From the NCBI GenBank assembly GCA_016865035.1, contig CP018227.1:1768001-1832000 (forward strand): a stretch of DNA of 64,000 nucleotides. The letters are read 5' to 3'. The position numbers and the translations under genes were made by a program. The DNA comes from Kordiimonadales bacterium IMCC3096. Lineage in GTDB: Bacteria > Pseudomonadota > Alphaproteobacteria > Minwuiales > Minwuiaceae. Below are positions 3,481 to 33,066 of this stretch, one piece after another. The notes under the pieces were generated by a model, which searched no databases, was not told where the DNA came from, and saw only the letters and a program-made list of their open reading frames with translations. Numbering within the stretch: position 1 is the first letter of the stretch; the number at the start of each line of letters is the position of its first letter.

Positions 3481-4413
3481 TCAGGTCCGTGTGAGCCGCT
3501 GGCAGACCTCGTCCAGCTGCTCCAGTGTGCGATAGGCAATGCGCACTTCACCCTTCGTGCCCTTGTGCCGGATCTCCACCTTCAGCCCCAGGGCATCGGC
3601 CAGGCTCTGCTCAAGAGCCGCGGTATCCGCGTCCTTGCGGGACTCAGGCTTCGGCCTGCTCTCGCTTCCCTGCTTGAACTGACGCCGGATCGCCTCGACG
3701 TCGCGAACGTTCAGACCACGCTCCACCACTTCCCGCGCAAGGCTCGCCGGGTCGTCGGCGGTGATCACCGCCCGCGCCGCACCTGCCGTCAGTTCGCCCG
3801 ACCGGACGTAGGACTTGACGTCATCCGGTAGGGACAGCAGACGCACTGCGTTGGCCACGTGACTGCGGCTCTTGCCGACCGCTTCGGCAATGTCCGCAGC
3901 GGAATGGCCGAACTCCCGCATCAGCCGCTGGTAGCCCTCCGCCTCTTCCATCGGGTTCAGATCCTGGCGCTGGATGTTCTCGATCAGCGCGATCTGCAGC
4001 GTCTCCGTGTCGCTCAGTTCGCGGATGATCACCGGAACTTCGTGCAGCTGTGCGATCTGTGCCGCGCGCCAGCGCCGCTCACCCGCGACGATCTCGTAGT
4101 TCTCCTCTTCCCCCGGCAGACGCCGGACGATGAGCGGCTGCAGAATGCCCTGGCGGTTGATCGACTGCACCAGGGTCGCAAGCTCGTCCTCGTCGAAGGC
4201 CTGGCGGGGCTGGAACTTGCCGGGGCGCAGGTAGGCCACGGGAACCTGTTTCAGGCCACGGGCGCGGTCGAGGACCCGATCATTCTCGCCGACCTCCTCC
4301 CCCAGCAGGGCGGAAAGGCCGCGACCGAGACCGCGGGAGGACGGGTTGCGACCGCTGTTCACCGCATCCGGCCTGGGTCGCTGCTGATCACCGGAATCGT
4401 CGTTGAAGGTCAT
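3481..4413 (-). CDS. parB: chromosome partitioning protein ParB
   Basis: CTP-dependent DNA-clamp protein that loads at parS and spreads over the origin region for chromosome segregation. The 310-residue product begins MTFNDDSG and has the N-terminal RGLGRGLSALLGE signature, the GERRWRAAQIA box of the CTPase/N domain, and the helix-turn-helix stretch including VGKSRSHVANAVRLL. The C-terminus is the dimerisation domain. The start at 4413 has an AGGGAG-like ribosome binding site. The frame stays open upstream to 4761, but that extension is antisense-like and overlaps parA. Three matching parS sites occur in this window. Confidence 0.96.
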   Translation of the reverse strand: MTFNDDSGDQQRPRPDAVNSGRNPSSRGLGRGLSALLGEEVGENDRVLDRARGLKQVPVAYLRPGKFQPRQAFDEDELATLVQSINRQGILQPLIVRRLPGEEENYEIVAGERRWRAAQIAQLHEVPVIIRELSDTETLQIALIENIQRQDLNPMEEAEGYQRLMREFGHSAADIAEAVGKSRSHVANAVRLLSLPDDVKSYVRSGELTAGAARAVITADDPASLAREVVERGLNVRDVEAIRRQFKQGSESRPKPESRKDADTAALEQSLADALGLKVEIRHKGTKGEVRIAYRTLEQLDEVCQRLTRT

Positions 4414-4573
4414 TTCTCTGCTGGCTCCCTGAACCGCATCGTCGGTCCTATCGACCGGTCCTGCCCGCGCCCGGGCGGACAACTCCTTGAAACAGGACGG
4501 AAATCGGCCTGGCGGGGGTCCACCCCGGCGATACCCGCCTGACCGCCTGCGGAGCCACCAGACATGTCGCCCG

Positions 4574-5377
4574 TCAGGCCGCCGTCCGCTGCCGCTCCCG
4601 TCGCAGCATCTCACCGGCAAGCTGGATATAGGCCTGGCTGCCGGCACAGCGGTGATCATACAACAGGGCGGGGCGTCCATGCGAGGGCGCTTCCGATACC
4701 CGGACATTGCGCGGAATGATCGTGTCATAGACCTTGGCGCCCAGATGGGCGCGGACATCATCGGCCACCTGTTCCGACAGCCGGTTGCGCCGGTCGAACA
4801 TGGTCAGCACGATCCCCTGCACTTCCAGCTTCGGATTCAGGGTGCGCCGGACCCGATCGACGGTGGAGAGCAGTTGCGACAGGCCCTCCAGCGCAAAGAA
4901 CTCGCACTGCAGGGGCACCAGCACCGCATCCGCCGCGACCATGGCGTTGACCGTCACCAGATTCAGGGAGGGCGGGCAGTCGATCAGGATGAAGTCATAA
5001 TCGCGCATCACCGGTCGCAGGGCTTCATCAAGCTGGCGCTGCGGCGGGTTCAGTTCTACCAGTTCCAGCTCCGCACCGGACAGTTCTACCGAGGCCGGAA
5101 TGATGTCCAGATTGGGTATGGCGGACGGTACGATGGTCGCCCCTACCGTCGAGGCCCGGACCAACAGATGGTAGGAAGTGCGGTCGCGTTTCGCCCGGTC
5201 GATCCCCAGTCCGGTGGAGGCGTTGCCCTGCGCGTCCAGATCGACCAGCAGCACCTTGCGTCCGACCGCCGCCAGGGCGGTTCCGAGATTGATCGCGGTG
5301 GTCGTCTTGCCGACGCCGCCCTTCTGGTTCACGACGGCCAGTTTGCGGGCGAGTCTGCTACCGGTTGGCATTTCCAT
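4574..5377 (-). CDS. parA: chromosome partitioning ATPase ParA
   Basis: Walker-type ATPase that binds nucleoid DNA and pulls ParB-parS complexes apart. The 267-residue product has the deviant Walker A motif KGGVGKTTTAINL near the N-terminus, Walker A' FILIDCPPSL, and a C-terminal basic tail. The start at 5377 (MEMPTGSRLARK) fits family length; ATG at 5371 is an alternative. Either overlaps the 3' end of rsmG by 14-20 bp, consistent with an rsmG-parA-parB transcript. A gap of 160 bp separates it from parB. Confidence 0.96.
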   Translation of the reverse strand: MEMPTGSRLARKLAVVNQKGGVGKTTTAINLGTALAAVGRKVLLVDLDAQGNASTGLGIDRAKRDRTSYHLLVRASTVGATIVPSAIPNLDIIPASVELSGAELELVELNPPQRQLDEALRPVMRDYDFILIDCPPSLNLVTVNAMVAADAVLVPLQCEFFALEGLSQLLSTVDRVRRTLNPKLEVQGIVLTMFDRRNRLSEQVADDVRAHLGAKVYDTIIPRNVRVSEAPSHGRPALLYDHRCAGSQAYIQLAGEMLRRERQRTAA

Positions 5378-5978
5378 GGTGTTCAAGCCCCCGAACCAGG
5401 AGTACGGAGCCAGCCCCGTCACTGAGGCTCTGATGACGCTCCCAGGAGAATTTCCAACATTTCGTGGCCGCGGTCAACTCACTCTCAATATCTTGACCCT
5501 TCAGAAAGGCACCAACGCTGTCCGTCTGCATGAAGGGTTCGATCCATTCGAACAGCTTCGGCAGGGGCGCCAGGGCACGGGCACTGACCACATCGGCCCT
5601 GAGATCCGTCACCGTTTCGATCCGGCTTGTGACCACGGTGATGTCGAGGCCCATGGTCCGCGCGGCTTCCCGCAGGAAGGCACACTTGCGGGCATCGGAC
5701 TCGATCAGGGTCACATGCGCGGAATGGGTTGCAGCCACCACAAGTCCGGGAAATCCGCCCCCGCTGCCCAGATCGATCCAGCTTCGGGCCGCAGCCGGAA
5801 CCAGCGGCACGAGCTGCCAGGAATCTAGGACATGGCGGGACCAGAACTGGTTCAGGGTGGAGCGTGCGACCAGATTGATGCGCGGGTTCCAGCGGTTCAG
5901 GAGGGTTTCGAGAGCCTGCAGGCGGGTCACTGTTTCACGTGAAACACCACTCCGCTTCCTGAACCCCTCCGCATCCAT
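5358..5978 (-). CDS. rsmG: 16S rRNA (guanine-N7) methyltransferase RsmG
   Basis: SAM-dependent methyltransferase that modifies G527 of 16S rRNA (formerly GidB). The product is 206 residues from the ATG at 5978, which lies 4 bp after the mnmG stop. The SAM-binding glycine loop is WIDLGSGGGFPGL, and NRWNPRINLVA is the usual N-terminal signature. A perfect parS palindrome is embedded in the coding sequence at 5931-5946 and encodes the SRET segment. The gene belongs to the mnmG-rsmG-parA-parB run. Confidence 0.96.
   Translation of the reverse strand: MDAEGFRKRSGVSRETVTRLQALETLLNRWNPRINLVARSTLNQFWSRHVLDSWQLVPLVPAAARSWIDLGSGGGFPGLVVAATHSAHVTLIESDARKCAFLREAARTMGLDITVVTSRIETVTDLRADVVSARALAPLPKLFEWIEPFMQTDSVGAFLKGQDIESELTAATKCWKFSWERHQSLSDGAGSVLLVRGLEHHGNANR
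5931..5946. promoter_or_regulatory. parS centromere site 1 (perfect palindrome)
   Basis: The 16-bp TGTTTCACGTGAAACA is an exact match to the bacterial parS consensus bound by ParB. It lies inside rsmG, about 0.55 kb from parA and 1.5 kb from the start of parB. Confidence 0.95.
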
Positions 5979-7950: not shown

Positions 7951-7966
7951 TGTTTCACGTGAAACA
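7951..7966. promoter_or_regulatory. parS centromere site 2 (perfect palindrome)
   Basis: Second exact TGTTTCACGTGAAACA, in the short gap between mnmE and mnmG, 2,020 bp from site 1. Confidence 0.95.
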
Positions 7967-12342: not shown

Positions 12343-13980
12343 ATGGTAAAGAAAACAGAATTTGCATCCGCAGCCGAATTATCAGTTCAGAACGTCATTC
12401 GACATGGCGACACGGACATATTCCCTTTTCCGTTCGAGAACCACGCATTCTTCGACAAGCAACCAGAATTAATATCATTGATCAAGAAATATGATGAAAA
12501 TTTCGAAGAATATTTGATCCAATATCCCCCCAAGAACGTCAGTTCATTGACACCGGCAACCTATTCTGGCTTTCGTTGGGCTACGCAGATCGACCCTATT
12601 TGGAACATGCATTTCCTTGCGTCAGTTATAAGTATTGGCACTAAAATTGAAGAAGCGAGAATTGGCCAAGATCATGAGACAATTTTTTCATATCGTTTTA
12701 ATACTAACAAAGAAACTGGCGACATTTTTGATCGCGATACCGGCTGGTTACAATTTATGAGGAGGTCTCTAAAGCTTGCAGAGATTCATCCATTCACAGT
12801 TATATGTGACATATCGGAATTCTATCCTAGACTTGGTCATCACCGGCTCGAGAATGCGCTTAGACAAGTCGCTGGCGATACTCCATATCCGAAAAAAATT
12901 ATGAGCTTTCTTTCCAATTTTTCAAACACCAACTCTTTTGGTTTGCCTATCGGAGGACCTGCTGCTCGCCTCTTGTCCGAAATCACGATAAATCAAGTAG
13001 ACAAGTTGCTAAATTCTAAGGGTATTGTGTTCACAAGATTTGCGGATGACTACCATCTTTTTTCACAGTCCAAGGAAGACGCATATAGGTTTTTAATTTA
13101 TTTATCGGAGAAATTGTTTATAAACCAAGGACTAACTCTACAAAAATCAAAAACTAGAATTATGAGTTCTGCTGAATTCAAAGCTACGAATCCAATCAAA
13201 GGTGAGCAAGAAACTGGGGGCAATCAGATCGTCGATCCGCCAGCAGACCATACTCGCAACACCTTGATGCGCTTTTCACTTAGGTTCGACCCATACTCGC
13301 CGACAGCCGATGACGACTACGAAGCGCTAAAGGCAGAAGTTAAAAAATTTGATATAATTGGTTTGCTAAAGCAAGAACTGGCCAAGAGCCGGGTTCATAC
13401 TTCTCTCGCTCGCAAAATTATATCTGCAATCAAATTTCTTGAAGGAAGTACAAAGCAAGATGCAGTCTTGTCTGTTTTGGAAAATTGTGATGTTCTCTAT
13501 CCCATATTTTCATCCGTATTGATGATGATCGATGACCAATTTGATGATCTAGAAATTGACACTCAAACTTCGGTAATAGATAGGATTCAGCAGCTTATCA
13601 ACCAAGATTCGCACGTTTTTCGCGTAGACATACATCTAAGTTTTGCGATTCGTGTCCTATCTCACAGGAACACTTCAGAAACTCAACTGCTTCTCCAGAA
13701 ACTTTTTGATACACGGCCATCAGAACTCGTTCGTAGAGACATAATTTTGGTCATGGCCAGGTGGGGCGAATGGTATTGGCTGTCTGACCTCAAAAACCGA
13801 TACAGAGAATTAAGCGCGCCAGAGAGGCGCGCCTTTATTGCCTCTTCCTTCATCCTGAGAGATGAGGGAAAACATTGGCGAGATCATATGAAAAAGGAAT
13901 TTGATCCATTTGAGGAATTCATTCTTCAATGGGCAAGTGAAAAGAAAGGTTTACAACAAGAATGGAGCGTCCCATTGTGA
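12343..13980 (+). CDS. reverse transcriptase, defence-type (UG/Abi/DRT-like)
   Basis: 545-residue RNA-directed DNA polymerase. Palm motifs are all present: motif A VICDISEFYPRL (D156), motif B GLPIGGPAARLLSE (residues 200-213), motif C RFADDYHLF (D235, D236), and LQKSKTRIM for the following motif. The N-terminal DIFPFPFENHAF segment and an all-helical C-terminus (about 330-545) without maturase or endonuclease domains resemble the unknown-group/abortive-infection RTs rather than group II intron or retron RTs. An AGGAA lies 8 bp before the ATG. Codon and base usage are strikingly AT-rich compared with the neighbours, a clear sign of transfer. The 3' end overlaps the nuclease-like gene by 19 bp. 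Confidence 0.88.
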   Translation: MVKKTEFASAAELSVQNVIRHGDTDIFPFPFENHAFFDKQPELISLIKKYDENFEEYLIQYPPKNVSSLTPATYSGFRWATQIDPIWNMHFLASVISIGTKIEEARIGQDHETIFSYRFNTNKETGDIFDRDTGWLQFMRRSLKLAEIHPFTVICDISEFYPRLGHHRLENALRQVAGDTPYPKKIMSFLSNFSNTNSFGLPIGGPAARLLSEITINQVDKLLNSKGIVFTRFADDYHLFSQSKEDAYRFLIYLSEKLFINQGLTLQKSKTRIMSSAEFKATNPIKGEQETGGNQIVDPPADHTRNTLMRFSLRFDPYSPTADDDYEALKAEVKKFDIIGLLKQELAKSRVHTSLARKIISAIKFLEGSTKQDAVLSVLENCDVLYPIFSSVLMMIDDQFDDLEIDTQTSVIDRIQQLINQDSHVFRVDIHLSFAIRVLSHRNTSETQLLLQKLFDTRPSELVRRDIILVMARWGEWYWLSDLKNRYRELSAPERRAFIASSFILRDEGKHWRDHMKKEFDPFEEFILQWASEKKGLQQEWSVPL

Positions 13981-14681
13981 TTGACGCTGCAACTTTCTCA
14001 TCATCCTATAACGCCTTTTGGGCTGAGGTTGCTCCGATGTTGGAGCATTTCACGCGTAGGCTCAATTTGGAGTATATTGAAAGGTTTGATGTTCCTATGG
14101 CTTCGGATAAAGAGGGTCGAAAGGCTCTCATAGCAGAACTCGCATTCTCTTTGATGGTGGAGAGACACCAGAGTAAGGGAAGAAGAAGGGGTAGGAGCCA
14201 TCTTTTTGCAGAATCGTGGAATGAGGCCACTCGTAGACTTCGCCCATTCGTCGGGCGCGGAGTTGACCTGGAGCTTCCCCTGCAGAAAGACGAGAAGAAT
14301 GAAGTTCTTGAAATTGAAAAGAGACTTATGGATTTTTTCAATGGAGCAAATTTACCGGTCAGAACCCGCCCTTTGTTCAAAGGTTGCGGTTTCGTAGATG
14401 CTTCCGAAGGCGATATTTTGACAAGGACCACGCTGTTTGAAGTTAAGACAGTCGATCGATCATTTCGAAGTGCAGATCTTAGACAACTCTTAACATATGC
14501 CGCGCTGAATGCTGCGGCTGGTGAAGTTGAAATACCAATGATGGGCTTGGTAAATCCAAGGAGAGGGGTATCGTTTGAGATACCAGTTGGTGAGCTTTGT
14601 AGTGATATTTCTGGACGCACAGCACAGGATCTGTTTGCCCTAATTATTCAGGTTTTCTCAAGCGGTGAACTGTCACGTTAG
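13962..14681 (+). CDS. PD-(D/E)XK nuclease-like protein paired with the reverse transcriptase
   Basis: 239-residue AT-rich gene starting inside the last codons of the RT gene, so the two are translationally coupled. I do not recognise a named family, but residues 145-180 fit a PD-(D/E)XK core: D151 in EGDIL, E160-V-K162 in LFEVKTV, then QLLTYAAL with Q175 and Y179. The conserved Q-x3-Y helix is common in restriction-like folds. Basic patches (KGRRRGR, residues 72-78) suggest nucleic-acid binding. No membrane segment is seen. By context it would be the effector or cDNA-processing partner of the RT; this is inference. Confidence 0.7.
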   Translation: MERPIVIDAATFSSSYNAFWAEVAPMLEHFTRRLNLEYIERFDVPMASDKEGRKALIAELAFSLMVERHQSKGRRRGRSHLFAESWNEATRRLRPFVGRGVDLELPLQKDEKNEVLEIEKRLMDFFNGANLPVRTRPLFKGCGFVDASEGDILTRTTLFEVKTVDRSFRSADLRQLLTYAALNAAAGEVEIPMMGLVNPRRGVSFEIPVGELCSDISGRTAQDLFALIIQVFSSGELSR

Positions 14682-14841: not shown

Positions 14842-14857
14842 CGTTTCACGTGAAACA
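14842..14857. promoter_or_regulatory. parS centromere site 3 (one mismatch)
   Basis: CGTTTCACGTGAAACA: the 14-bp core GTTTCACGTGAAAC is perfect and only the first base departs from consensus. It lies in the 5' flank of the dienelactone hydrolase gene, between the AT-rich cassette and the core genes. Confidence 0.88.
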
Positions 14858-21262: not shown

Positions 21263-22291
21263 TCAGACTGCCTTCAGCATCTCCGACAGCTCGGCCACAT
21301 GTTCCGGCGGTGTTTCCGGCACGAACCCGTGGCCCAGGTTGAAGATGAAGTTGCGGTGACCGAAGCAGTCCAGGATGTGCCGGGTGGCCTGGCGCATCGG
21401 CTCGCCGCCGACCATCACCAGACGCGGGTCCAGGTTGCCCTGCACCACCCGGTGCGGCTGCACGTTGGCCGCAACCCATTGCGGGTCCATGCTCCAGTCC
21501 ACGCTCAGTCCGGCGATCCCCGGAATCCGCGCCGCGTGGGCCAGCGAGGTACCGACACCCCGCGGAAAGCCGATCACCGGAATATCCGGATAGTCGGCAT
21601 GGATCAGTGCCGCGATCTGCTGCAGCGGCTGGAACACCAGCGGTTCCAGGTATGCATGCGGCAAGGCACCCGCCCAGGTATCGAAAAGCTGCACGGCCTC
21701 CGCCCCGGCCGCGATCTGCGCCTTCAGATAGGCCGCCGTGCCCTGCACCAGCAGATCCATCAGCTTCCCGAACCCCTCCGGGTCGCTGAAGGCCCATTGC
21801 TTGATGGTCGGATGATCGCGGCTGCCCGATCCCTCCACCATGTAGGTTGCGACAGTCCAGGGCGCACCGGCAAAGCCGATCAGCGCGGTCTCGGCAGGCA
21901 GGGAGCGGCTGAGACGGCTGACGGTCTCATAGACCGGTCCCAGGCCCTCGTGCAGGCGGTCCATGTCCAGGGCGGGAATGTCCGCCGTCCGTCGGATCGG
22001 TTCCAGCACCGGACCCTCACCGACCCTGAACTCCAGATGCTGGCCCAGCGCCTGGGGCAGCAGCAGGATGTCCGCGAACAGGATCGCCGCATCCATGCCG
22101 AAGCGCCGGATCGGCTGCAGGGTGACTTCCTCAGCCAGATCCGGCCGATAGCACAGGTCCAGAAAGTCCCCGGCCTCCGCCCGCGTGGCCCGGTATTCCG
22201 GCAGATAGCGTCCGGCCTGGCGCATGAACCAGAAGGGCGGCCGATCAACGGGTTTGCCGTTCAGTGCCGCAAGAAACCGCTTCTCAGTCAT
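21263..22291 (-). CDS. hemE: uroporphyrinogen decarboxylase
   Basis: 342-residue cytoplasmic enzyme that decarboxylates uroporphyrinogen III to coproporphyrinogen III. The signature RQAGRYLPEYR is at residues 24-34, and FADILLLPQALG and the C-terminal FNLGHG are also present. An AGGAG lies 7 bp before the ATG at 22291. In several alphaproteobacteria hemE borders the replication origin, facing away from DUF299/ppsR; here one extra gene intervenes. Confidence 0.97.
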   Translation of the reverse strand: MTEKRFLAALNGKPVDRPPFWFMRQAGRYLPEYRATRAEAGDFLDLCYRPDLAEEVTLQPIRRFGMDAAILFADILLLPQALGQHLEFRVGEGPVLEPIRRTADIPALDMDRLHEGLGPVYETVSRLSRSLPAETALIGFAGAPWTVATYMVEGSGSRDHPTIKQWAFSDPEGFGKLMDLLVQGTAAYLKAQIAAGAEAVQLFDTWAGALPHAYLEPLVFQPLQQIAALIHADYPDIPVIGFPRGVGTSLAHAARIPGIAGLSVDWSMDPQWVAANVQPHRVVQGNLDPRLVMVGGEPMRQATRHILDCFGHRNFIFNLGHGFVPETPPEHVAELSEMLKAV

Positions 22292-22362
22292 CAGATCTCC
22301 TGGTGGTGATGCTTGTTGCTGACCCCGGCCAGCACGGTCCGCCGAAAAAGCCGCCAACCCGC

Positions 22363-23430
22363 TCAGACAGGTTCCAGAGGCACCGTCAGCCGTGTTCCGT
22401 CAACCAGGATTCCGCCCCGGTCGCCGATCATGGTGGAGCCATAGCGCTCCGCATAGACATCTGGCAAGGGACGTGCCCCCGGAATTGCCAGCCAGAGCCG
22501 CAACAGGTGCCGCTTGCGCTCCGGCTCCGGCCAGTCCTCATAGGCCAGCCGATCGTGCAGGATGGTGTGATTGTGCACGAACTGGATGTCGCCGGGCCGG
22601 AACTCCATCTTCAGATGCATCGCCGGATCATTGGCAAGCGCGTCGAAGCGGTCCAGCGCCGCGACCTCCAGGTCCAAAAGGCGGCGCGGCCCCTCCAGCC
22701 GGGCGGAGGAGGTGATGTAGCGCCGGGCATAGATCACCGACAGATAGCTTGCGTGATGATTGAACACGGGAATGTCGAACCAGGCCTTCTTGCCCGGGGG
22801 AATCTCGCCCCGCCGGTCGGTCGGAAAGCTGCTGAACAAGGCCCGAAGCAGTTCCGGGCAGTCCCGGTGCATTTCATTGTAGATCTGCATCGAGCTGACG
22901 ATCGCCGACTCTCCGCCTGTCCTGGATGTCCTGAGACAGAGCAGCCCCACCACGTCACAGGAATCCGTATGGAACGTCTGACGCTCCGTGGTCTGGTAGA
23001 TCCTGACCTTCGGATCGTCCGTCGACAGCCCCAGGTCCCTGACGTGACCCAGCAGGTGCCCCTGCGCATTCTGACTGCGGGGCACGCCCATCAGCAGGCC
23101 AAGCCCGTACCACACCGCCGCTGTCTTCTGCATGTCCCAGTCATGGATCGGCAGTCCCCGCGCCAGCACGAACCCCCTTCCAGACAAAAGGGTGTCGCAC
23201 CAGTCACTGGTCCTGGCGGTCAGCACCGGGTGGTCCAGATCACTCCGCTCCATCCCTGCCAGTGGCTTTCCGCTTGCCAGAAAATCATCGACCCTCTCCG
23301 AAAGTGCCGTGATGAAGGGCTTGTCCAGCAGATCGATCCAGCTTTCGGGATGCGGTTGCAGGTCCGCGCCACGCCAGGCGGATGCGCCCGTGATCGGTTC
23401 CGGCAGGGCCAGGGTCGCTGTCTCGTTCAT
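22363..23430 (-). CDS. TauD/TfdA-family Fe(II)/2-oxoglutarate dioxygenase-like protein
   Basis: 355-residue protein with the iron-binding facial triad pattern: H-x-D in TFHTDSCDVVG and a distal His in FVHNHTILHDRLAYEDW, followed by the 2-oxoglutarate Arg region ERKRHLLRLWL. It is the TauD/TfdA or gamma-butyrobetaine-hydroxylase-like fold. The substrate is unknown. The start at 23430 (MNETATLALP) is preferred over an in-frame ATG 30 bp upstream. It is wedged between hemE and the putative origin, an unusual location for an accessory enzyme. An 8-3-8 inverted repeat at 23478 lies in its promoter region. Confidence 0.85.
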   Translation of the reverse strand: MNETATLALPEPITGASAWRGADLQPHPESWIDLLDKPFITALSERVDDFLASGKPLAGMERSDLDHPVLTARTSDWCDTLLSGRGFVLARGLPIHDWDMQKTAAVWYGLGLLMGVPRSQNAQGHLLGHVRDLGLSTDDPKVRIYQTTERQTFHTDSCDVVGLLCLRTSRTGGESAIVSSMQIYNEMHRDCPELLRALFSSFPTDRRGEIPPGKKAWFDIPVFNHHASYLSVIYARRYITSSARLEGPRRLLDLEVAALDRFDALANDPAMHLKMEFRPGDIQFVHNHTILHDRLAYEDWPEPERKRHLLRLWLAIPGARPLPDVYAERYGSTMIGDRGGILVDGTRLTVPLEPV

Positions 23431-23872
23431 GGTCTTCTCTCGGTGATGGAATCCACGCACAGGGTCCTCTCTCTTACTCTTATCTTATAGATAAGAATCT
23501 GGAGGTTGTAGCTGGTCGCTGGATAGCGGGGATTGTTTTGTCTCCCGCGGTTGCGCACAGGCTGTTGCCGGATCTTCGGTTTCATCCCCGTATTGCCCGG
23601 AATGCCGGCTCCCGGATTCCCGGCCGTTGTCAGCAGATGTCCACAGGCCGGTCGGGAACCTTCATGGTTTCACCCGTTGTTCACCCCGTCCACTGCTTCC
23701 CTGACCCGTTGCCCGTTTCCTGTGGGGGCAAACAGGCGGTGCGTTTGCGAAACTGCCCTTCTCTTCCCTCGCATCCGATTCCCCCCGACTGTACATTCCC
23801 CTGTGGATCATCTGATCCGGCGGACGGCAGATCGCCCCTCCCGCCCCTATTCCAGCAACGGACGCCAGCACC
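23431..23872. other. putative chromosomal replication origin (oriC)
   Basis: 441-bp gene-free stretch between the hemE side and ppsR (DUF299), which is where oriC lies in Caulobacter and Rickettsia. It contains DnaA-box-like words: TGATCCACA on the minus strand (23802-23810, 8 of 9 to TTATCCACA and equal to the Caulobacter G-box type), ATGTCCACA (23637-23645), TTGTTCACC (23677-23685) and TTGCGCACA (23551-23559). The AT-richest part is 23470-23510. No TTAA-N7-TTAA CtrA sites are seen. Function is inferred from position plus motifs. Confidence 0.65.
23478..23496. promoter_or_regulatory. 8-3-8 inverted repeat, candidate operator
   Basis: TCTTATCT-TAT-AGATAAGA, perfect, 48 bp upstream of the TauD-like gene start. 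It has the size and symmetry of a dimeric repressor site. It might also serve as the AT-rich element of the adjacent origin. Confidence 0.5.
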
Positions 23873-24694
23873 ATGAACAGCTTTCACCTGCATCTGGTCT
23901 CCGATTCCACAGGTGAGACCCTGACCGGAATCCTCAATGCCGCGCTGGTGCAGTTTGCCGATGCCAATGCGGTGAAACACCTCTGGCCGATGATCCGCAA
24001 CCGGGCGCAGATGGAGCTGGTGATTCGCAGCATCCAGGAATCCCCGGGCATCGTGATCTTCACCGTGGTCGATCCCGACCTGCGCCTGTTGCTGGAAGAG
24101 GCCTGCCGTCGGCTTGGCGTGCGCAGTGTGGCGGCGCTGGACCCGGTCATGACGGCGCTGGGCAGCTTCCTCGGCGGGGAAACGCGCGGCCGTCCCGGCA
24201 TCCAGCACGAGATGAACAACGAATATTTCGACCGGATCGAGGCGATGCACTTCACCCTGATCCATGACGACGGCCAGCATGTGGAGGATCTGGATCGTGC
24301 GGACGTTGTCCTGGTCGGCGTTTCCCGCACATCGAAGACCCCGACCTGCATGTACCTGGCAAATCGCGGGCTGAAGGCGGCCAATGTCCCCTTCGTGCCG
24401 TCCGTTCCCCTGCCCGAGCAGCTGCTGAAACTGCGCAAGCCCCTGGTCGTGGGCCTGACCACATCCTCCGAACGGTTGAGCCAGATCCGGCGCAACCGCC
24501 TGCTCAGCCTGCGGGAATCCGGTGACAGCGACTATTCCGACCCGGAGGTCGTCGCCGATGAACTGGCGGAGGCCAAGCGTGTCTTTGCGCGCAATCGCTG
24601 GCCCACGATCGATGTGACCCGCAAGTCGATCGAGGAATCCGCCGCGGCGATCCTGTCGCTGTATCACCGCCGCATGAAAGAACAGGCGGTATGA
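23873..24694 (+). CDS. ppsR: pyruvate, phosphate dikinase / PEP synthase regulatory protein (DUF299)
   Basis: 273-residue bifunctional serine/threonine kinase and Pi-dependent phosphorylase that switches PEP synthase or PPDK on and off. It has the DUF299 N-terminus HLHLVSDSTGETL and the P-loop-like GVSRTSKTPTCMYLANRG, with a C-terminal DVTRKSIEESAAAIL. The ATG at 23873 is the first after the origin-like stretch. The stop overlaps the maf start (ATGA). This gene is the classical right-hand neighbour of alphaproteobacterial oriC (RP001-type gene). Confidence 0.93.
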   Translation: MNSFHLHLVSDSTGETLTGILNAALVQFADANAVKHLWPMIRNRAQMELVIRSIQESPGIVIFTVVDPDLRLLLEEACRRLGVRSVAALDPVMTALGSFLGGETRGRPGIQHEMNNEYFDRIEAMHFTLIHDDGQHVEDLDRADVVLVGVSRTSKTPTCMYLANRGLKAANVPFVPSVPLPEQLLKLRKPLVVGLTTSSERLSQIRRNRLLSLRESGDSDYSDPEVVADELAEAKRVFARNRWPTIDVTRKSIEESAAAILSLYHRRMKEQAV

Positions 24695-29767: not shown

Positions 29768-30189
29768 CTTTTAACAATAAAATCGATGGCTTAGCCGAGC
29801 GCAATGCGCGCTAAAGTTGTGTAATTCAAAAACACACGTTAAACACACTTTTTGCCGTGTTGCTGACTATTTTGACTGCGGACTCGCTCTGTTGGACACT
29901 GTGAAGCTGCTCTGTGCTGTGTTGTCGCAAAAACTTGGAACACTGTGTTGCCCGCTATGTTACCAACACTGTGTTCGCAGTTTGTGGTTCAAACACTGTG
30001 TTGGCGGAGTTTTGGGCGGACAGGATTGTGGACATTTATAAGTTGATTGACGACTTTTGGCACATAGCGGGTATTCGCCGCCGATGCGGCTAAGATCAGC
30101 TTAAAGCCCAAATTTTCTACGGATCTAGATGCAGCTAATAGCTGGTATCTTGCCTGGCGCTCCACTTCATTCAGAACAAATGCCCGCTT
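29768..30189. repeat. AT-richer gene-free stretch with iteron-like AACACTGTGTT repeats
   Basis: Three exact copies of AACACTGTGTT (29939-29949, 29965-29975, 29992-30002) are spaced 26 and 27 bp apart. Degenerate partners lie at 29912 and 29895, and ACAC-rich sequence at 29832-29850. Each unit is itself an AACAC-N-GTGTT inverted repeat. Regular spacing suggests an array of protein-binding sites, such as replication iterons or integrase arm sites. The short frame 29817-30041 across it looks fortuitous. Confidence 0.6.
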
Positions 30190-31359
30190 TCACGTAGTCT
30201 TCGCCTTGGAAGGCGGATTTATCTGCTTAGATATGAAGAACAGGAGTGTTGCTAACGCAAGCACAGCAACCGAGGCAATTGGCAAAGCAACCGGGCCATA
30301 AGCTTCGTAAACAGCGCCACCGCCCGCTGCGCCCAGCCCCTGACCTCCGAAAAACGCAGATGCGTTGAGAGCTAGGGCCAGTTGGGCACGTGCGCCCGCT
30401 GTCTCCATCAGCCGCGCCTGCAACGGAGCCAAGCAAAGGGCCCAGCCGACACCAAAGAAAATAAACGCCGGGTATGACAGCCAGTAGAAGTGGGGTGCCG
30501 CCCAGAGGATCTGAAAACAAACTGCCGTGAAAGCGAGGCCACCAAGGATTGTACCATCGCGCCCAAGCAAACGCACCAAATGGGAGGAAAAGGCATTGCC
30601 AATCACTGAAGCGATACCGGCTGCCAATAGGGCCGTTGTCAGCGCTGTGCGTGGTGCCTCCCCCACCTCGATAAGCCAGAATGCGATCATTGCGTAGGTG
30701 ATGAAGCCGCCGCAGATCAACAAAAGCGTGGTGGCGATGGTCAGTGATGTGGCACGGTCAGCCAGGACCGCAAGCATAGCCGTAAATGAGGCTCGAGTGC
30801 CGCGTACGCCACCAGAAACGCCAATCACCACGCCAAATGCGGCAACAAAAGCTGCACCTCCTGCCACGAACCAGGCAGCGCGCCAGCCAGCTGCCTCGGC
30901 CACAGCACTGGAGATTGGCAGGGCCACCACTAATGATGTTGTGAGCCCGCCAAAAACCACAGACATAGCGGCCGGGCGCTGCGCCTCTGTCACCAGTGAT
31001 GCCGCAATGACTGAGGCCGTGGGCATCACTGAAGCGGCACCTAGGGCCATAGCTACCCGAGCTGCCATTGCCTGCTCCCAGTTTTGCGCAAATCCAAGTG
31101 CCATGCCGCCGCAACCTAGCAAGACAAGTGAGACAAATAGCACTGCGCGGCGCTCCCAATGGCCGATCAGAACCTGCGCGACCAAGGCCCCAACCGCAAG
31201 CGAGAATGAAAAGGCCCATACCAGCGCGGCGACATCCTCTGCCGATACCCCCAGGCCGGATCGCATCTCAACCTGTACCGCGATAATGGCAAGCGAGCCC
31301 CAGCTTGCGCAGAACTGACAGAACCCGAGCAGGATGAGAATTGGCCAAGCACGTCCCAT
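30190..31359 (-). CDS. MFS transporter (drug/H+ antiporter-like)
   Basis: 389-residue inner-membrane protein with about 12 hydrophobic segments. It has the MFS loop-2/3 basic motif region (VLIGHWERRAVLFVSLVLLGCG) and a helix-4-type AARVAMALGAASVMPTASVI, suggesting the DHA1 efflux group. The substrate cannot be inferred. It is transcribed divergently from a TetR regulator that shares the intervening operator-like repeats, the usual arrangement of an efflux pump and its repressor. Base composition is lower in GC than the chromosomal backbone, consistent with transfer. Confidence 0.88.
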   Translation of the reverse strand: MGRAWPILILLGFCQFCASWGSLAIIAVQVEMRSGLGVSAEDVAALVWAFSFSLAVGALVAQVLIGHWERRAVLFVSLVLLGCGGMALGFAQNWEQAMAARVAMALGAASVMPTASVIAASLVTEAQRPAAMSVVFGGLTTSLVVALPISSAVAEAAGWRAAWFVAGGAAFVAAFGVVIGVSGGVRGTRASFTAMLAVLADRATSLTIATTLLLICGGFITYAMIAFWLIEVGEAPRTALTTALLAAGIASVIGNAFSSHLVRLLGRDGTILGGLAFTAVCFQILWAAPHFYWLSYPAFIFFGVGWALCLAPLQARLMETAGARAQLALALNASAFFGGQGLGAAGGGAVYEAYGPVALPIASVAVLALATLLFFISKQINPPSKAKTT

Positions 31360-31453
31360 AGTTTTTGATCCCTTCGATCGCTACGCGCATGCTGAAGTCT
31401 AGTTTTCTCTTGCCGAAAGTCGCTGCACGTTGTTGCTAATTTTATACTATAGC

Positions 31454-31497
31454 GTATTTTAATGCCCATGCAAGCTTAAAATACTAACGGGTATTTA
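31454..31497. promoter_or_regulatory. TetR-type operator repeats between divergent genes
   Basis: GTATTTTAA (31454-31462) and TTAAAATAC (31476-31484) form a perfect 9-13-9 inverted repeat, and a third half-site GTATTTA follows at 31491. It lies directly before the regulator start and in the MFS promoter region, so autoregulation and pump repression are likely. Confidence 0.65.
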
Positions 31498-31500
31498 TTT

Positions 31501-32109
31501 ATGAACACAAAAGGAAACAAACCCGCCCGCGGGCGCCCGAAAACCATGAGCCGGGATCATGTGCTTAAAATCGCGGTGGAAAGCTATTGGGCAGATGGGC
31601 CGACGGGCGTTTCGATAAACGAGATTAGCCGCCGCGCTGGTGTGTCCAAGCCTGGCATTTATCGGGAGTTCGGTAACGAAGATGGGCTGAAACAGGCCGC
31701 CCTGATAGCATATCAGGCGACCATCCTGGCGCCATTGGTAGATGTTCTCACGGATGATGTTCCCTTTGGTCAAGCCTTGCAAGCGCTCACTGATTTCGTC
31801 CTTTTGGACCACAAGGCGCACGGTTTGCCGGATGGCTGCCTTCAGGTTACAATGTGCCGCAGCAAAGATGATCTTGGAATGCTCGCGCGGCAAAGTGCCG
31901 ACAAGTTCCGGGAACAGACCTTGTGTGGCCTTGAACAGTGGATCGAAAGGGCGAAGTCAAAAGGACAGTTCGCCTCAAACATACCCTCAAGGACGGCAGC
32001 CCTTTATATTGATGCTCAGATCGCTAGTGCGATGGAGCTACAGAAACAGGGCGCGGCTCAGGATGAATTAGAGCATGTCTTCAAACTTGCCCTGTCAGTA
32101 TTTTCCTGA
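31501..32109 (+). CDS. TetR/AcrR family transcriptional regulator
   Basis: 202-residue repressor. The N-terminal helix-turn-helix is VSINEISRRAGVSKPGIYREFGNEDGL (starting about residue 37), with the characteristic G-(I/L)-Y-x-x-F ending, followed by a helical ligand-binding domain. It is divergent from the MFS gene, with inverted repeats just before its ATG. No clear Shine-Dalgarno is seen, so translation may be weak or near-leaderless. Confidence 0.9.
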   Translation: MNTKGNKPARGRPKTMSRDHVLKIAVESYWADGPTGVSINEISRRAGVSKPGIYREFGNEDGLKQAALIAYQATILAPLVDVLTDDVPFGQALQALTDFVLLDHKAHGLPDGCLQVTMCRSKDDLGMLARQSADKFREQTLCGLEQWIERAKSKGQFASNIPSRTAALYIDAQIASAMELQKQGAAQDELEHVFKLALSVFS

Positions 32110-32422
32110 AAAATGGCACCCCTATTCTCGGCCATAGCTGTATTGATTTCTCGAACCAGTCTGGCGAACTTGCCATTGGTGCGCGGGCGAAGAATGACGG
32201 TTTCGTTCACAAATAGAAATTACATCTCAGGCTGTCTGAAAATATTTGGAATTTTATTAAAAATGCGTACTACCCCTTTATAGGGGTAGCACTGACATTC
32301 ATTGACTTCATCGTATCAATCAAATTAAGTAAGTGGAGTGGCTCCAGTCTCCATGCGAATAATCTGTTGGTTTAATTATTGGATTTCATTAAGAGAGTGA
32401 GGCGCCACAACTTCTCGACAAG
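32110..32422. other. AT-rich gene-free stretch with a CsoR/CstR-like inverted repeat
   Basis: CTACCCC (32270-32276) and GGGGTAG (32283-32289) flank a TTTATA spacer, resembling the TACCC-n-GGGTA operators of the CsoR/FrmR family. A TTGACT at about 32302 could be a -35 element. No gene begins downstream on the plus strand. The stretch may be a relic of a lost metal- or persulfide-responsive promoter. Confidence 0.4.
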
Positions 32423-32809
32423 TCAAAGAACCAAGCCCACATAGAGCAGAGCGGTGCATACGAAGGCCGTTACCCAAGCAGCGGTTCGGAACCAAACGAT
32501 CCCGAGCGCGTAGAGTGCAACATATGCAATTCGAGCGAGCAGAAACGTCAGCATCAGTTGATCAGCCAAATTGTTGGCGGCATCGGACAGGTGGGTCATC
32601 AAAACTGCAGGTGCTACCAAAGCGAGCGCAAGCAGCGAGTTATTCGCGGCGCGTTCCATTCGCCCAGCAAGGCCTGTCAGAACGAGATTTTCTCGATTGC
32701 CGGCAAGCGTCGATAGCCCGACCTGCTGGGCCGCTACCAAGACTTGGGCCAAGATTACAATAACGACAATCAACCCGTAAATTGCCAGATAGAGCACAAA
32801 GTCTTGCAT
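32423..32809 (-). CDS. MAPEG family membrane protein
   Basis: 128-residue four-helix membrane protein of the MAPEG type (microsomal glutathione transferase-like). It starts MQDFVLYLAIYGLIVVIVI and has RMERAANNSLLALAL and ARIAYVALYALG, the family's conserved interior. The start at 32809 has GGAGG about 8 bp upstream; a longer frame to 33244 includes unrelated sequence. It may act in glutathione or lipid-peroxide metabolism. It lies inside the foreign insertion near a truncated GST, but the two need not be functionally related. Confidence 0.85.
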   Translation of the reverse strand: MQDFVLYLAIYGLIVVIVILAQVLVAAQQVGLSTLAGNRENLVLTGLAGRMERAANNSLLALALVAPAVLMTHLSDAANNLADQLMLTFLLARIAYVALYALGIVWFRTAAWVTAFVCTALLYVGLVL

Positions 32810-33066
32810 ATGTTCGTCCTCCAAACGGTAGGTCTTTGCTATTGTTAACCGACATTCCCCATATGGTTTGCCTTCCGCTACGGTAAGGCCACTGAATGCA
32901 ACTTTCCAAGCAATTTTCTCCTCTGGCCCTCGTGGGATGCGGCGTGCCGGCCGCGAAGAGCGGCTGAGCAGGTCGATCCAATCGCTTGAGGCTTCGTTCC
33001 GCCCGGTTTCGGGCATACCTATCCCGCCGCCACCGAAGCGACTTGCGGTTCTGAGGTCGCCGCCGA

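Follow-up and report, generated by a model that had tools for sequence, protein, structure and literature searches.

The locus described here raises the question of where the chromosome of Kordiimonadales bacterium IMCC3096 starts to replicate. The stretch analysed, called the window throughout, comprises 64,000 nucleotides (1,768,001-1,832,000) of one 4,291,441-base contig (G000:C1; 100% complete), and the closest named relatives of its ppsR gene are Minwuia records, 96% and 90% identical, on which ground the organism is treated as a Minwuia (Alphaproteobacteria). A sequence-only reading had proposed a chromosomal origin in a gene-free gap between the flanking genes, which it put at 441 bp and which measures 442 bp by coordinates (23431-23872; 1,791,431-1,791,872 on the chromosome). 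The parS sites, the skew switch and the synteny of the class agree with this proposal, and the gap is very probably the chromosomal origin (oriC), of a type with weak DnaA boxes.

The gap, its neighbours and its counterparts in the class

The gap and the genes and sites around it are:

3481-4761, minus strand: parB (Pfam ParB_N, HTH_ParB and ParB_C)
5931-5946, plus strand: parS site 1, about 17.5 kb from the gap
7951-7966, plus strand: parS site 2, about 15.5 kb from the gap
14842-14857, plus strand: parS site 3, with 1 mismatch, about 8.6 kb from the gap
21263-22357, minus strand: hemE (TIGR01464, 7.8e-116)
22363-23430, minus strand: TauD/TfdA-family dioxygenase gene, left flank (Pfam TauD, 9.7e-37)
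23431-23872, no strand: candidate oriC, the whole intergenic gap (parS, skew, class-wide synteny, DnaA-word enrichment)
23873-24694, plus strand: ppsR (DUF299/COG1806), right flank, with maf, aroE, coaE and dnaQ next

The gap is bounded by the ATG of the minus-strand TauD gene (tauD, ending at 23430) and that of ppsR (23873); hemJ, hemE and tauD are read on the minus strand, and ppsR, maf, aroE, coaE and dnaQ on the plus strand. At both loci of the family that belong to other genera (L052 and L053), no tauD stands between hemE and the gap. The sequence-only reading had invoked the order hemE, oriC, DUF299 known from Caulobacter and Rickettsia. Here ppsR does adjoin the gap, but since tauD intervenes on the other side the order is not literally true, and the earlier description of the gap had missed both this dioxygenase gene next to hemE and a conserved unwinding-like block at 23471-23535. 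In 7/7 Minwuia sequences, window included, tauD separates hemE from the gap, and the gene was apparently gained right at the oriC edge in Minwuia. A patch of lower G+C (49-57%) at 30001-33000 carries genes for an MFS transporter and a TetR-type regulator and a MAPEG-domain gene.

The distance of 9-18 kb previously given for the three parS sites holds. They are the genome's only parS sites at up to two mismatches, all of them within the window, where 0.08 sites are expected by chance at up to three mismatches. Between sites 2 and 3, an island of low G+C (41-50%) contains, at 12343-14681 on the plus strand, an RT similar to PADLOC Drt8 (1.6e-161) and after it a PDDEXK nuclease of the RT-associated kind (1.1e-65), the two being predicted to form a DRT-type anti-phage defence pair.

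The same arrangement extends over the class: ppsR diverges from hemE (from tauD in Minwuia) in 92/99 loci, the window's own locus excluded, the ppsR-relative loci being the best 80 of 223. The seven loci not counted (L062, L063, L064, L069, L090, L112 and L129) include some at a contig or flank end; the 92 gaps include 4 second copies of Minwuia loci with identical gaps, and later counts use 88, window included. Against dinucleotide shuffles, in tests that treat the loci as unrelated and ignore kinship, the 92 gaps hold 31 copies of TTATCCACA (0.3 in shuffles), 146 of TCCACA (19.0), 197 of ATCCCC (48.1) and 554 of GANTC (361), and TNATCCACA is present in 37/92. TGTGGA and GGGGAT are concentrated in the half next to hemE; for TCCACA and ATCCCC the commonest place is the final fifth, beside ppsR, and A+T peaks in the second tenth. 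These shared signs of synteny, DnaA words and polarity suggest that the gap is the origin in much of the class.

As the sequence-only reading had noted, the gap has no CtrA motif (TTAA-N7-TTAA), with 0 matches at up to one mismatch compared with 5 elsewhere in the window. The departure from Caulobacter that it deduced from this absence is real but not unusual: the exact motif occurs in 32 copies in 15/92 class gaps (2.9 in shuffles) and is lacking from 77/92. A box-poor, CtrA-free gap is common in the class.

Caulobacter has an established origin of the hemE/COG1806 type, and Rickettsia and its relatives have predicted ones; the type is recognised by an intergenic region of >300 bp beside a hemE or COG1806 ortholog; CtrA sites are absent in several members, and the IHF site is missing or diverged in some (PMC1914354, excerpts). 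The Minwuia gap appears to be a new case of this type: it spans 442 bp beside ppsR with hemE one gene away, and the A+T and the skew shift also agree with the type, the latter at a resolution of about 50 kb either side. Cori of Caulobacter crescentus is alike in its ppsR/COG1806 flank, nearby hemE, AT-rich patch and lack of a strong DnaA box (PMC1914354, PMC4468827, excerpts). It differs from the Minwuia gap, which is without CtrA sites, has a TauD-family gene before hemE and contains a single G-box-like site where Cori has two. The TGATCCACA type of G-box and weak boxes of the CCCC type are presumably also common to both. The predicted origins of Rickettsia and Wolbachia likewise occupy gaps of ~380-460 bp by hemE and/or COG1806 with A+T above average, and in Wolbachia three DnaA boxes are accompanied by an IHF box and, in all strains except one, by CtrA sites (PMC1914354, excerpts), whereas the Minwuia gap has one near-consensus box and, by the patterns tried, no IHF or CtrA site.

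DnaA words and conserved blocks in the gap

The elements discussed below are:

23474-23499, no strand: AT-rich patch with the palindrome TCTTATAGATAAGA, candidate first-opening site; lowest G+C of the gap, conserved
23500-23514, plus strand: trinucleotide tract TGG AGG TTG TAG CTG (NNG in 5/5 steps, T-N-G in 3/5; p = 0.044)
23518-23526, minus strand: degenerate DnaA box GCTGGATAG, 3 mismatches to TGTGGATAA (TGTGGATAT in two genomes of the genus; alignment; profile match at 23520-23534)
23527-23533, minus strand: CGGGGAT, predicted weak W-box-like DnaA site (GGGGA kept in 7/7 Minwuia)
23584-23589, plus strand: ATCCCC, second W-box-like word, in the orientation opposite to CGGGGAT (word count, Minwuia alignment)
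23640-23645, plus strand: TCCACA, weak DnaA-like word inside GTCCACAGG at 23639-23647
23786-23815, no strand: second conserved block, containing TGTACATTCCCCTGTGGATCA (23790-23810); a ppsR promoter is an alternative reading
23802-23810, minus strand: TGATCCACA box, G-box-like (word match; 59 copies in the genome)

The TGATCCACA box and the weaker DnaA-like words reported earlier were thus recovered, at 23802-23810 on the minus strand and at 23639-23647. The gap holds two TCCACA, two ATCCCC and one TNATCCACA; each of these counts is matched by about 1-2% of 442-bp windows in the surrounding 715 kb, and the sum of four DnaA-like words by 0.67%. Words within one mismatch of TTATCCACA are not in excess in the window (4 found, 4.35 expected), and the exact word is absent from the gap, the genome's three copies lying at 1.585, 1.732 and 1.761 Mb. 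Genome-wide, TGATCCACA occurs 59 times, its reversed spelling twice and exact TTATCCACA three times; DnaA or codon usage may account for the excess of TGATCCACA. DnaA-like words by themselves would not single the gap out; it is singled out by the comparison across genomes together with the replichore signal.

In base composition, the gap has 40.7% A+T compared with 34.8% in the surrounding 715 kb. The one short AT-rich patch of the earlier description is borne out by a 25-mer of 20% G+C at 23474, a value equally low in 1.7% of 442-bp windows of the 715 kb. Exact matches to an IHF consensus number 0 in the whole window, where 0.98 are expected by chance, and a search for repeats within the gap gave nothing iteron-like.

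In the 7 Minwuia sequences, the top-conserved 25-mers fall in 23471-23535 (best 0.76, mean 0.52), where the AT-rich TTACTCTTATCTTATAGATAAGAATC, the tract TGGAGGTTGTAGCTG, the degenerate DnaA box and CGGGGAT follow one another from left to right. The same order of AT-rich DNA, tract, TGTGGATATC and GGGGATT is found at the matching gap end in many loci of other orders. In G006, a genome of the same genus, the tract reads TTGAAGATGATGTTGTTG and the box TGTGGATAT, and G003 is nearly the same. The degenerate box and CGGGGAT of the window agree with the class anchor TGTGGATATCGGGGATT in 14/17 letters, and this anchor, with at least 13 of its 17 letters matched, occurs in 36/81 non-Minwuia loci, against 0.56 in shuffles (at most 3); it was chosen after the sequences had been read, and for the controls the gaps were shuffled or other positions within them were used.

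A profile of the block was trained on 32 loci with at least 13/17 anchor letters within the first 200 nt, leaving out L056, L075 and L136 (by eye), Minwuia, L052 and L053. On the window this full-length class profile gives 5.2 bits, ranking fourth and level with the fifth match in 1.995 Mb of the genome's own DNA (E 45; about 0.01 in a gap-only search), which is not a significant match to the window's block in own DNA. Among the Minwuia loci, the block scores 9.6 bits in L050, 9.9 in L051, 6.7 in L046 and 3.4 in L047, with no match at the block in L048 and L049, the values of 9.6-9.9 bits being those of G006 and G003. The sister-genus locus L052 scores 22.3 bits (E 3e-6), and L053, from another genus, 4.7 bits. 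In the Minwuia sequences near the window, the DnaA box has decayed, leaving the tract and the weak box.

The second block is conserved mainly among close relatives: at 23786-23810 the five nearest sequences show their highest 25-mer identity (0.864; mean 0.61), but with all 7 Minwuia sequences the block is outside the ten best 25-mers. The position of the TGATCCACA box is occupied by TGTGGATCA in 3 of the 7, by TGTGGATGA in 2 and by the inverted TATCCACA in 2.

A GANTC, which we take to be a CcrM-type site, lies at 23495-23499 within the AT-rich patch. In the class, GANTC falls in the AT-rich element of 32/76 loci, compared with 8.9 in single-letter shuffles. This placement hints at a control of opening by methylation.

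The replichore switch and other possible positions of the origin

The octamer GGGNAGGG, presumably KOPS, was counted on 20-kb pieces, 27 from the left arm and 29 from the right. Its forward:reverse counts are 40:120 left of the region and 113:22 right of it, and the GC skew is -0.023 on the left and +0.020 on the right; the skew stretches tested cover 46% of the chromosome. The switch was then scanned for on a contiguous 715 kb, with training solely on DNA outside those 715 kb. The minimum of 6-mer asymmetry, at 1,791,844, is inside the gap (gap 3.8 units above the minimum, dnaA 252), a base-pair agreement that is partly expected because the genes diverge at the gap and that should not be over-read. 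The 5-mer minimum lies at 1,744,834 (gap 7.6 units above, dnaA 188) and the 4-mer minimum at 1,837,777 (gap 22.4, dnaA 198). With GGGNAGGG only, the change point falls 50 kb rightward of the gap, at 1.842 Mb, the gap being 9.5 and dnaA 17.6 log-likelihood units worse. The check that the sequence-only reading had named, a skew switch at the gap or beside dnaA, came out for the gap: the switch lies at ~1.79 Mb, placed around the gap to about 50 kb either way and away from dnaA, a single gene at 1,529,347-1,530,945, ~260 kb from the gap. GGGNAGGG reverses again at 3.97-4.05 Mb, and 3.94 Mb is the position opposite the gap; as a dif-site pattern (up to 3 mismatches) gave 0 matches, the terminus is placed by this flip only.

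G006 is a single contig of 4,700,671 bases with ppsR at 239,277-240,092 and parS at 260,118, 264,638 and 266,652 (1-2 mismatches), 20-26 kb from the gap; its dnaA, at 1,139,297, is 0.9 Mb from the gap and from parS. GGGNAGGG counts are 24:13 at 0.267-1.1 Mb, 29:8 at 1.1-2.5 Mb, 16:47 at 2.5-4.7 Mb and an undecided 12:13 over four pieces starting at 0.06-0.227 Mb, a piece at 247,001 (6:4) being counted in none of the four sums. Although the signal of 24:13 is weak, the counts place the switch of G006 on the gap's side and away from dnaA. In G003 parS lies 19-26 kb from the gap on the same contig; G008 has parS and gap on separate contigs and is hence uninformative. In three other genomes of the class, two parS-like sites each were found about 6-9 kb from ppsR in G020 (both with 2 mismatches), 13-16 kb in G017 and 15-17 kb in G022; a third weak match of G017 lies at a different place, and in this genome a reversed-letter control gives as many matches as the parS pattern. 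In these genomes dnaA is about 0.1 (G017), 1.2 (G020) and 0.2 Mb (G022) from ppsR, with G017 and G020 taken as circular. In Rhodospirillales and Sphingomonadales, dnaA is described as not retained in the vicinity of ori (PMC8116508, excerpts).

An origin next to dnaA (1.53 Mb), the arrangement of many other bacteria, would have one exact TTATCCACA at 54 kb from the single dnaA gene to its credit. Its score falls 188-252 log units short of the best change point, however, no parS lies near dnaA, and in G006 the distant dnaA has GGGNAGGG of equal sign on both sides; on the strand-asymmetry change-point scores this candidate was rejected, and we give it next to no chance. Another gap within about 50 kb, for instance at 1.745 or 1.84 Mb, is very unlikely, if somewhat less so: three of the four asymmetry measures peak 46-51 kb away, but to either side, so that their directions conflict and the gap lies between them. 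It is also the hemE/ppsR gap that is the class-wide place of DnaA words, and with 5 words it is among the six best four-word DnaA clusters in the 715 kb; two others have 6, and at least three of the other five are contained entirely within stop-free frames 367-982 codons long.

The conserved blocks might instead be mere promoters of tauD and ppsR. These genes diverge, and the blocks are suitably placed, 23471-23535 at 41-105 bp from tauD and 23786-23815 at 58-87 bp from ppsR. A like left block is present, however, also where the neighbour is hemE and not tauD, its words are DnaA words, and promoters leave parS and skew unexplained, which makes this reading most improbable as well. An origin in the gap remains by far the preferred interpretation.

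The T-N-G tract and its possible reader in DnaA

A run test on the tract before the first GGGGA gave p < 0.05 in 25/77 loci, compared with 0/54 at later GGGGA sites and 3/143 on the opposite strand; its score table was set after the sequences had been read, and 11/88 gaps without a GGGGA anchor were left out. Among the Minwuia sequences, 6/7 are below 0.05 (window 0.044), and L048 has 0.074. In 35 tightly anchored loci, T-N-G makes up 2.83 of 5 steps (1.61 in shuffles, sd 0.10) and TAG 1.23 (0.73 in shuffles), while steps with a middle A show no enrichment (2.89 versus 3.05). The 21 loci with at least 4/5 T-N-G steps have A in the middle 37 times, G 30, T 23 and C 0, and their tracts end 12-19 nt before GGGGA; the window, with 3/5 T-N-G steps, is outside the 21 and has 13 nt.

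The DnaA-trio is 5'-TAG-3' (PMC6669920, excerpts), and a published criterion for it requires a DnaA box to have three or more 5'-NAN-3' steps no further than 16 bp away (PMC8287927, excerpts). When the box is allowed up to 3 mismatches, the window's gap has no plus-strand match to this criterion, and the minus strand matches at two other gap boxes (2 and 3 mismatches), at a shuffle-like level. At 3 mismatches the criterion discriminates poorly, since shuffles pass in 46.6 of 88 gaps; with a 1-mismatch box, real gaps pass in 10/88 and 12/88 on the two strands against 1.5 in shuffles. The basal unwinding system of Bacillus subtilis and other bacteria also has its tract on the TGTGGAT-reading strand, with AT-rich DNA beyond (PMC8287927, PMC6669920, excerpts). 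In place and strand, the block resembles this DnaA-trio unwinding module without its middle A: T and G are kept and the middle A is not, and Asn187 of the B. subtilis initiator is replaced by Tyr or Phe.

In B. subtilis DnaA, Arg202 and Glu228 hold the G and Asn187 holds the A; a middle G or T weakens opening and C does not, and none of the trio-contact residues is universally conserved, although their properties generally are (PMC10721633, excerpts). Aligned to 8btg, the genome's own DnaA carries Tyr, Lys and Glu at positions 187, 202 and 228, respectively. In 30 other DnaAs of the class (the 29 best matches besides our own, from 57 genomes searched and 55 with a match, and that of G006), residue 187 is Tyr in 28 and Phe in 2, residue 202 is Lys in 30/30 and residue 228 is Glu in 30/30. 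The exchange of Asn for Tyr or Phe seems a larger change than a property-preserving substitution. Domain IV, which binds the box, aligns along its length to E. coli 1j1v.

A lost adenine reader fits a free middle base, which is suggestive; separate inheritance of both traits within the class would also account for them. Given that Asn187 is replaced, the Lys/Glu guanine pocket kept and the fixed middle A of the tract lost, we put forward, tentatively and as less probable than its negation, that alphaproteobacterial origins open by a variant trio, in which DnaA would read T-N-G (3'-GNT-5') rather than T-A-G; in Minwuia the strong box would have decayed in addition, and the tract would be loaded from weak boxes. 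Among the open-access titles and abstract openings listed for the DnaA-trio together with hemE or with alphaproteobacteria/Caulobacter, none describes a T-N-G tract or the change at residue 187. An earlier description is possible, as the survey in PMC8287927 covers Proteobacteria classes in a figure and supplementary tables (excerpts).

From the location and conservation of the elements, the replichore switch and the enrichment of words and tract, we infer the following course of DnaA binding and opening. DnaA would first sit on the weak sites: TGATCCACA at 23802, CGGGGAT and ATCCCC at 23527 and 23584, and the degenerate box (23518). Starting at the 23518-23533 end, it would polymerise leftward onto the T-N-G strand (23500-23514) and open the AT-rich patch at 23474-23499, where the helicase would be loaded. 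ParB bound at parS, 9-18 kb leftward, would then carry the new origin away.

Taken together, the probable origin of a barely studied lineage can be placed in a 442-bp gap, and this origin stays linked to ppsR and parS and not to dnaA. The variant trio, if correct, amounts to a paired, testable prediction that links a residue of the initiator to the letters of the opening tract, and this pairing would bear on whether one unwinding code serves all bacteria.
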